From assembly GCA_003244105.1 (NCBI GenBank), contig QHBK01000006.1, positions 248,001-312,000 on the forward strand: a stretch of 64,000 nucleotides of DNA, written 5' to 3'. Under the pieces are notes generated by a model, which was not told where the DNA came from, ran no database searches, and worked only from the letters and a program-made list of their open reading frames with translations. Shown piece by piece: positions 56,725 through 57,532 of the stretch (position 1 is the first letter of the stretch; each line of letters starts with the position of its first letter). Source of the DNA: Candidatus Eremiobacter antarcticus. GTDB taxonomy: Bacteria; Vulcanimicrobiota; Vulcanimicrobiia; Eremiobacterales; Eremiobacteraceae. The position numbers were made by a program, and so were the translations under genes.

Positions 56725-57048
56725 ATGCGGATCGAGCGGGTCGATTACTCACCGCGCAAAGAGGTCTATCACCCGGGTGAGGTGGTCAATGTCGCCATCC
56801 GCTTCGCCGAGCCGTTCGTGGGCCAGTGTGAGATCGGGTTCGTGCCGCAGGACCGCCCCGCCGGGGAAGACTTCCGCCGTTCGACGTGCGCTCGCAGCAG
56901 CGACAAGCTCTATGAAGGCCAATTGTACCTGCGAGATGGCCAAGTCGGACGGTGCGCGTTGCTGGTCCGGCTGGCGCCCGTCAAGGGCGCACCGCAAACG
57001 GTGCGGGCAGGCGAGCAGATCTTCGAAGTCCGCCCGTTGCGGCCCTAA
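56725..57048 (+). CDS. hypothetical protein upstream of the selenoperoxiredoxin
   Basis: A 107-residue protein with a strand-rich pattern (VYHPGEVVNVAIRFAEPF; GQCEIGFVPQD; VGRCALLVRLAP; GEQIFEVRPL) that suggests a small immunoglobulin-like or beta-sandwich fold. It has three cysteines. No signal peptide is seen. It ends 19 nt before the peroxiredoxin gene on the same strand and is likely co-transcribed with it. I do not recognise a family. Confidence 0.7.
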   Translation: MRIERVDYSPRKEVYHPGEVVNVAIRFAEPFVGQCEIGFVPQDRPAGEDFRRSTCARSSDKLYEGQLYLRDGQVGRCALLVRLAPVKGAPQTVRAGEQIFEVRPLRP

Positions 57049-57067: not shown

Positions 57068-57532
57068 ATGCCAGTGCGAGTTGGAGAACCGTTGCCCGAT
57101 ATCAGAGGCGAGTCGCCGCAAGGACCCGTCAAGCTTGCCGATTTTCGCGGGCTGAAATCCATCGTCTTGTGGGCCTACTCCAAAGATGGCACATCCGGCT
57201 GAACCAATGAAGCGCGTGACTTCAGTCAGCGGTCCGCTGACTTTGAACGGCTCGATACCATCTTAGTCGGGGTTTCCCGAGACACCGTAGAGTCGCACCG
57301 AACCTTCGCCGCCGATCACGCAATCACGGCGTACTTGCTGGCGGACCCAAGCGGGAGCATCTGCAGCGAGTTGGGAGTGCTTCCGGACCCCGCCGGCAAT
57401 GCCAAGCGCACGACGTTCGTCATCGACAAGCAAGGCGTCGTCCGCCGGATTTTCGAGAACGTAAAGGTCCCGGGGCACGCCGACGAGGTGCTCGCCTTCG
57501 TGTGCGATATGGCCGCCATGAAATTGCCGTAG
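57068..57532 (+). CDS. BCP-type peroxiredoxin with in-frame UGA at the catalytic Cys (probable selenoprotein)
   Basis: One frame of 155 codons from ATG 57068 (AGAGGA upstream) reads as a peroxiredoxin from end to end: LADFRGLKSIVLWAYSKDGT, SG-UGA-TNEARDFSQ, LVGVSRDTVESHRTFAADH, RTTFVIDKQGVVRRIFENV, then TAG. The only interruption is TGA at 57200-57202, codon 45. BCP/PrxQ proteins have the peroxidatic Cys at this place (TPGCTKEA; Cys45 in E. coli BCP). Selenocysteine is therefore the likely residue, giving a 154-residue enzyme that reduces peroxides. The resolving Cys five residues on is Arg here; other Cys lie in SICSELG and FVCDM. A nonsense mutation is the alternative. Confidence 0.82.
57224..57242 (+). 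promoter_or_regulatory. putative bacterial SECIS hairpin
   Basis: AGTCAGCG (57224-57231) and CGCTGACT (57235-57242) form a perfect 8-bp stem with loop GTC. The loop G is 30 nt after the UGA at 57200-57202. Bacterial SECIS elements are stem-loops in the coding sequence just after UGA, with a small loop led by G and placed roughly 16-37 nt downstream; this fits. TTC and GAA flanks may extend the stem past a bulge. Confidence 0.65.

Follow-up and report, generated by a model that had tools for sequence, protein, structure and literature searches.

A conserved hairpin as the putative bSECIS of a selenocysteine peroxiredoxin clade in Candidatus Eremiobacter antarcticus and its relatives

The SECIS of E. 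coli fdhF, one of the closest described counterparts of the RNA element discussed here, carries the loop AGGUCU. Within this element G23, U24 and the bulged U17 are critical (PMC8659212); E. coli SelB attaches to the SECIS by its C-terminal domain and supplies the ribosome with Sec-tRNA at the UGA (PMC4513850). In the more general bSECIS model (PMC13188914, Fig. 2 therein), a stem of 4-16 bp carries a loop of 3-9 nt, with at least one G among the two leading loop nucleotides, usually followed by G/U, a spacing of 16-37 nt between UGA and loop, and an MFE at or below -7.5 kcal/mol. Sec-containing peroxiredoxins with a TxxU motif (Prx) are known in several other phyla (PMC1794560, PMC13188914). 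Our search of the literature for Sec use in Eremiobacterota/WPS-2 returned nothing relevant.

The stretch of DNA that was analysed here (the window) comprises 64,000 nt, positions 248001-312000 of contig 6, in the 2.6-Mb genome of Candidatus Eremiobacter antarcticus, which is assembled in 19 contigs. It contains a peroxiredoxin gene, hereafter Prx1, that is open through an in-frame UGA followed by a hairpin. In window coordinates, the features are:

56725..57048, + strand: upstream ORF of 107 aa, used as orthology marker; beside Prx1 in all nine orthologous loci, with 38-57% identity
57057..57062, + strand: Shine-Dalgarno-like AGAGGA, read from the sequence, with 5 nt between it and the ATG of Prx1
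57068..57532, + strand: predicted peroxiredoxin selenoprotein gene (BCP/PrxQ-like, AhpC/TSA; Prx1), open through the UGA, with ATG at 57068 and TAG at 57530-57532
57200..57202, + strand: in-frame UGA, predicted to encode Sec45 where the peroxidatic Cys is expected (motif T-S-G-U); aligned with the Cys of Cys homologues
57203..57230, + strand: 28-nt spacer from UGA to apical loop, 5' arm included; same length in 9/9 orthologues
57224..57230, + strand: 5' arm of the putative bSECIS upper stem, AGUCAGC, conserved and pairing with the 3' arm
57231..57235, + strand: apical pentaloop, GGUCC here and GGUCN among the orthologues, where SelB is predicted to make contact; GGUC invariant in 9/9
57236..57242, + strand: 3' arm of the putative bSECIS upper stem, GCUGACU, conserved and pairing with the 5' arm

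While the standard ORF of Prx1 stops at the UGA, reading this codon as Sec gives a product of 154 aa. Its domain matches Pfam PF00578 (AhpC-TSA, E 1.4e-28), with the UGA at the catalytic Cys and within a TxxU motif (TSGU), as in Sec-peroxiredoxins, and a profile of the Prx1 clade matches BCP/PrxQ structures, with 5enu as the best (E 1.3e-33). Thr42 and Arg114 are invariant across the clade. With the Sec-containing Prx (TxxU) and PrxU proteins, Prx1 has in common the AhpC/TSA fold, the TxxU motif and the predicted peroxidatic Sec, but it forms a separate clade and lacks a resolving Cys at the fifth residue past Sec; in seven of the nine Prx1 orthologues, position 99 is a Cys. Assignment to PrxU (NCBIfam NF040737) was rejected, as Prx1 scores 40.2 bits, far below the cut-off of 270. 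At codon 38 (57179-57181), Prx1 has a Ser (YSKDGTSGU) in place of the Pro of PxxxTxxU, where all eight other orthologues read YPKD; either the substitution is genuine or the assembly contains an error here. The 107-aa ORF, for which no Pfam or NCBIfam family was matched, sits between Prx1 and a divergent FAD-linked oxidase-like gene.

The original prediction described a perfect 8-bp stem with the loop GTC, starting 22 nt after the UGA and placing its loop G at 30 nt, and this is indeed what the sequence holds: AGTCAGCG at 57224-57231, GTC at 57232-57234 and CGCTGACT at 57235-57242. The GUC loop results from pairing of the first and last bases of GGUCC, which is possible in this genome. However, the innermost G-C of this 8-bp stem is not a conserved pair, the last loop base being C, T or G in relatives, and the conserved form is therefore a 7-bp stem with the pentaloop GGUCN, located at +29 to +33 from the UGA. 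In this form, or in the form found in this genome, none of the constraints of the bSECIS consensus model (PMC13188914) is violated: the loop measures 5 (or 3) nt and the stem 7 (or 8) bp, GGUCN provides the early G in 9/9 orthologues, the spacing is 28-29 nt, and the MFE is about -11.5 kcal/mol (-11.4 to -11.5 kcal/mol for the 31-nt hairpin element alone). Folding of positions 57200-57250, proposed as a check along with the original prediction, does yield the stem (-13.8 kcal/mol), but the z-score is only -0.77, since the 51-mer as a whole is not unusual. A scan of the hairpin region against Rfam returned no family.

How does this hairpin compare to that of E. coli fdhF? Both have GGUC within the loop, but the Prx1 hairpin has no equivalent of the bulged U17, its stem being continuous over 7 bp, and the E. 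coli loop lies ~10 nt nearer to the UGA. A second point of comparison is provided by the UGA-containing fdhA of nine genomes of the family, whose hairpin has the loop GGUCU on a stem of 7 bp (6 bp in a single genome), within a coding sequence whose peptide is unrelated to that of Prx1. The fdhA loop is found at +19 from the UGA, nearly the same distance as in E. coli, but here too the stem is continuous. A continuous 7-bp stem is thus found in 8/9 copies of Prx1 and in 8/9 copies of fdhA. With the loop G and U present in both genes, and the bulged U absent from both, recognition in this lineage probably involves a stem without the bulge. That two unrelated genes of one genome share a continuous 7-bp stem and GGUC(N) is the strongest single argument for one common reader, SelB.

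Judged from one sequence alone, the Prx1 hairpin is only moderately improbable (about 0.4-0.9%), which is suggestive, not conclusive. A Watson-Crick hairpin of 8 bp and bSECIS geometry follows 7 of the 1675 TGA trinucleotides in the window (~0.4%), and synonymous recodings that preserve the peptide at this place reach 8 bp in 0.88% of cases. A 7-bp stem together with a GGUC pentaloop is reached by 0.0125% of these recodings, and requiring the GGUC pentaloop leaves two qualifying sites among the 1675 TGA, both of which appear to be the one Prx1 hairpin, counted from TGA 57200 and from TGA 57208. It is the comparison of orthologues that takes the case beyond this single-sequence suggestion and makes it convincing.

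A search of 148 related genomes yielded, besides Prx1 itself, eight close peroxiredoxins that are 48-66% identical to it and belong to the same family-level group (L009-L017 for the nine). The same 107-aa upstream ORF and the same FAD-oxidase-like gene adjoin the peroxiredoxin in all nine genomes, and this shared local gene order identifies the nine as orthologues. Every one of them (9/9) carries the UGA in the column of codon 45. The 7-bp stem is perfect in eight; the ninth, L017, has a single C-A mismatch within it. Covariation of the two arms had been put forward as a test of the hairpin, and in these UGA-containing orthologues 98.4% of the stem cells are paired, with one pair changed on both sides. 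Displacing the 3' arm by 1-3 columns lowers the paired fraction to 52% or less. The compensatory change, from A-U to G-C at pair A29-U39 (alignment columns), occurs in three sequences of one genus, where Gln CAG has become Arg CGG and is matched by the synonymous change of GCT to GCC. The covariation score was reached by 9 of 500 shuffles. The support from covariation is modest, since the change happened once, in a single genus, and near-pairs make up four of the nine orthologues.

The nine Prx1 sequences group into a single clade (SH-aLRT 90) in a tree built from 91 peroxiredoxins, and every member of this clade has UGA, none Cys. Homologues with Cys were expected to lack the stem, and they do: in 35/35 Cys homologues the stem at the same position reaches at most 3 bp, and none carries the palindrome. 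A second peroxiredoxin of the same genome, Prx2 (L109; contig 1, 7624-8625), has its own in-frame UGA in the motif FTQGU and the putative SECIS CCGCC-AGGUU-GGCGG. Across eight genomes, the UGA copies of Prx2 follow the pattern CCGCC-AGNNU-GGCGG, with AGGUU, AGUCU, AGGCU or AGUUU as the loop, at nearly the same distance from the UGA as in Prx1; the only Cys copy of Prx2 (L117, genome G009) has neither the stem nor the loop. For both Prx1 (UGA in 9/9, with Cys homologues from outside its clade) and Prx2, the hairpin is accordingly present with UGA and absent with Cys, the co-inheritance expected of a bSECIS. L109 is directly adjoined by another AhpC/TSA gene.

The genome also encodes what such an element would need. 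A tRNA-Sec was found (75.7 bits), as were SelA (E 1.4e-153) with an adjacent SelB (E 4.8e-86) that carries a SelB-wing_3 domain (E 1.1e-19), and SelD (E 2.6e-107), which has an in-frame UGA of its own. As predicted from these matches, the Sec apparatus of the genome (SelA, SelB, SelD and tRNA-Sec) is complete. Further Sec genes in the genome were sought by family only; two molybdopterin oxidoreductases have an in-frame UGA, both in a formate-dehydrogenase-like context, and the first of them is the fdhA with the GGUCU loop described above. On contigs 3 and 2, the selD gene and the two formate-dehydrogenase-like genes with in-frame UGA (L120, L132, L134) each have, ~20-23 nt downstream of the UGA, a hairpin whose loop contains GU or borders on it.

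We consider it very probable (about 95%) that the Prx1 hairpin is a bSECIS that directs insertion of Sec, via SelB, at UGA 57200 of the 154-aa peroxiredoxin. The C-terminal winged-helix domain of SelB would bind the 7-bp stem and the GGUCN loop in the Prx1 mRNA, and SelB, loaded with Sec-tRNA-Sec and GTP, would meet the ribosome where it pauses, at the UGA that precedes the loop by 28 nt. Through this delivery at the paused codon, UGA would be read as selenocysteine, and the resulting product of 154 residues, with its peroxidatic Sec45, would presumably act as a peroxidase. The original prediction regarded the hairpin as support for active Sec insertion as opposed to an accidental mutation, a view that the orthologues, their codons, the Sec machinery and the Cys homologues all favour.

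The same prediction also held that no protein-level constraint would require a palindrome in the stretch encoding the stem. This detail was wrong in that such constraint is not absent: the peptide DFS(Q/R)RSADF is nearly invariant in the clade, with variation in the nine orthologues limited to Q/R and one D/E, and part of the conservation could therefore be at the protein level. Could the palindrome then be kept only for this peptide, with the UGA recoded by another signal? That just 0.0125% of recodings combine 7 bp with the GGUC pentaloop speaks against it, and so does codon usage: the stem-loop codons have an identity of 0.72 where 0.34 is expected, compared to 0.45 where 0.41 is expected elsewhere, with other codons of invariant residues as the baseline (column permutation p about 0.0015). 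Arg55 is CGG and Asp58 is GAC in 9/9 orthologues, within the loop and stem, whereas the third base of Ser56, at the loop edge, varies freely. These synonymous positions point to an RNA-level constraint on the hairpin. Moreover, the CAG to CGG change is matched by the synonymous GCT to GCC, and the same loop recurs in fdhA over another peptide, which makes conservation of the peptide as the sole cause very unlikely.

An ordinary nonsense mutation, in a pseudogene or through an assembly error, with a palindrome that arose by chance, is less probable still. Hairpins of this geometry do follow about 0.4% of the TGA in the window, and the z-score of the 51-nt fold is unremarkable, but this explanation is already refuted by the orthologues, all nine of which, in nine genomes, have UGA in the one codon that aligns exactly with the catalytic Cys, and the hairpin too, with one mismatch in one. 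The frame downstream of the UGA is intact as well, with a dN of 0.04-0.39 versus a dS of 0.34-1.72 and dN the lower in 7/7 orthologue pairs tested; dN being so far below dS indicates that this region is translated and its frame under purifying selection. A near-perfect inverted repeat might equally be a DNA operator or a transcription terminator. Yet the palindrome is unique in the genome, near-matches (with up to two mismatches) are no commoner than those of a reversed control pattern (10 versus 8), no long T-run follows the hairpin, and a terminator scan does not select it, on which grounds both readings were rejected; conservation of the asymmetric GGUC loop, and of a position fixed relative to the UGA, leaves them scarcely any probability. 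Finally, a frame that continues past the UGA would also be seen if the codon stood for Trp or some other standard amino acid, whether through general reassignment or by read-through. We deem this extremely improbable, considering that the UGA falls exactly at the catalytic Cys, that the predicted Sec apparatus is complete, and that in 14/16 genomes of the class with a clear Prx match and no detected selA, UGA is absent from Prx. The two exceptions that keep UGA, G001 and G113, are both fragmented assemblies; in G001, an assembly of 370 contigs, we found no selA and no selB above the cut-off. Both peroxiredoxins of G001 (L010, L112) keep the UGA and intact hairpins, a point against the bSECIS reading, as are the mismatch in L017 and the missing bulged U17.

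With the bSECIS reading of the Prx1 hairpin favoured, its spacing can be compared to that of other peroxiredoxins in the class. The type A Sec-peroxiredoxins (e.g. L028, L029, L066, L026) belong to the same enzyme family and likewise have UGA in this codon, with a hairpin immediately downstream, but this hairpin, GCGUCGC-AGUUCC-GCGACGC, has its loop at +17, 12 nt nearer to the UGA than in Prx1. Such +17 loops occur in four genomes of Prx1's own family among others, with stems of 7-9 bp in many, whereas the loops of the Prx1 clade (type B) and of Prx2 are at +28 to +29. In one type A gene with UGA, L074 (genome G080), the +17 stem is lost and TCGCGC-AGTTC-GCGCGA is found with its loop at +38; another, L035 (genome G031), has no usual +17 hairpin and a weaker GCCTC-GTTT-GAGGC at ~+38. 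Relocation of the SECIS is possible in these two. Because types A and B are different clades in the tree of 91 peroxiredoxins, and the upstream neighbour of type B (the 107-aa ORF) is absent from the three type A loci of the family that were checked, these spacings do not show movement within one gene, with the possible exception of L074. Each loop distance falls close to or inside the known range of 16-37 nt. In the type A sequences compared, stems are longer with UGA than with Cys (Mann-Whitney p 0.008, uncorrected for relatedness), but a test on independent pairs had one usable pair, and we draw no conclusion from this difference. Six further UGA peroxiredoxins of the class (L019, L031, L038, L065, L067, L024) yielded no good hairpin that fits the bSECIS geometry and may use a different class of SECIS.

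These spacings raise the idea that in the Sec-peroxiredoxins of this class the SECIS was re-made at distinct positions, namely +17, +28/29 and ~+38 (L074, perhaps L035), having repeatedly shifted along, or originated within, the coding sequence, in which case a single SelB would serve loop distances 10-12 nt apart. To this scenario we would give even odds. That related peroxiredoxins of one class differ clearly in how far their SECIS lies from the UGA is in itself mildly new.

While the bSECIS mechanism itself is well understood, Prx1 represents a new clade of Sec-peroxiredoxins, and the present comparison secures its UGA as a Sec codon. Gene callers would otherwise split or drop this gene, since its standard ORF ends at the UGA and its score against the PrxU model is far below the cut-off. 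Furthermore, it brings in a lineage with no fewer than five genes with in-frame UGA in one genome, i.e. two peroxiredoxins, two formate dehydrogenase-like genes and selD, and these five genes provide a clean internal comparison of the SECIS loops and spacings for one SelB.
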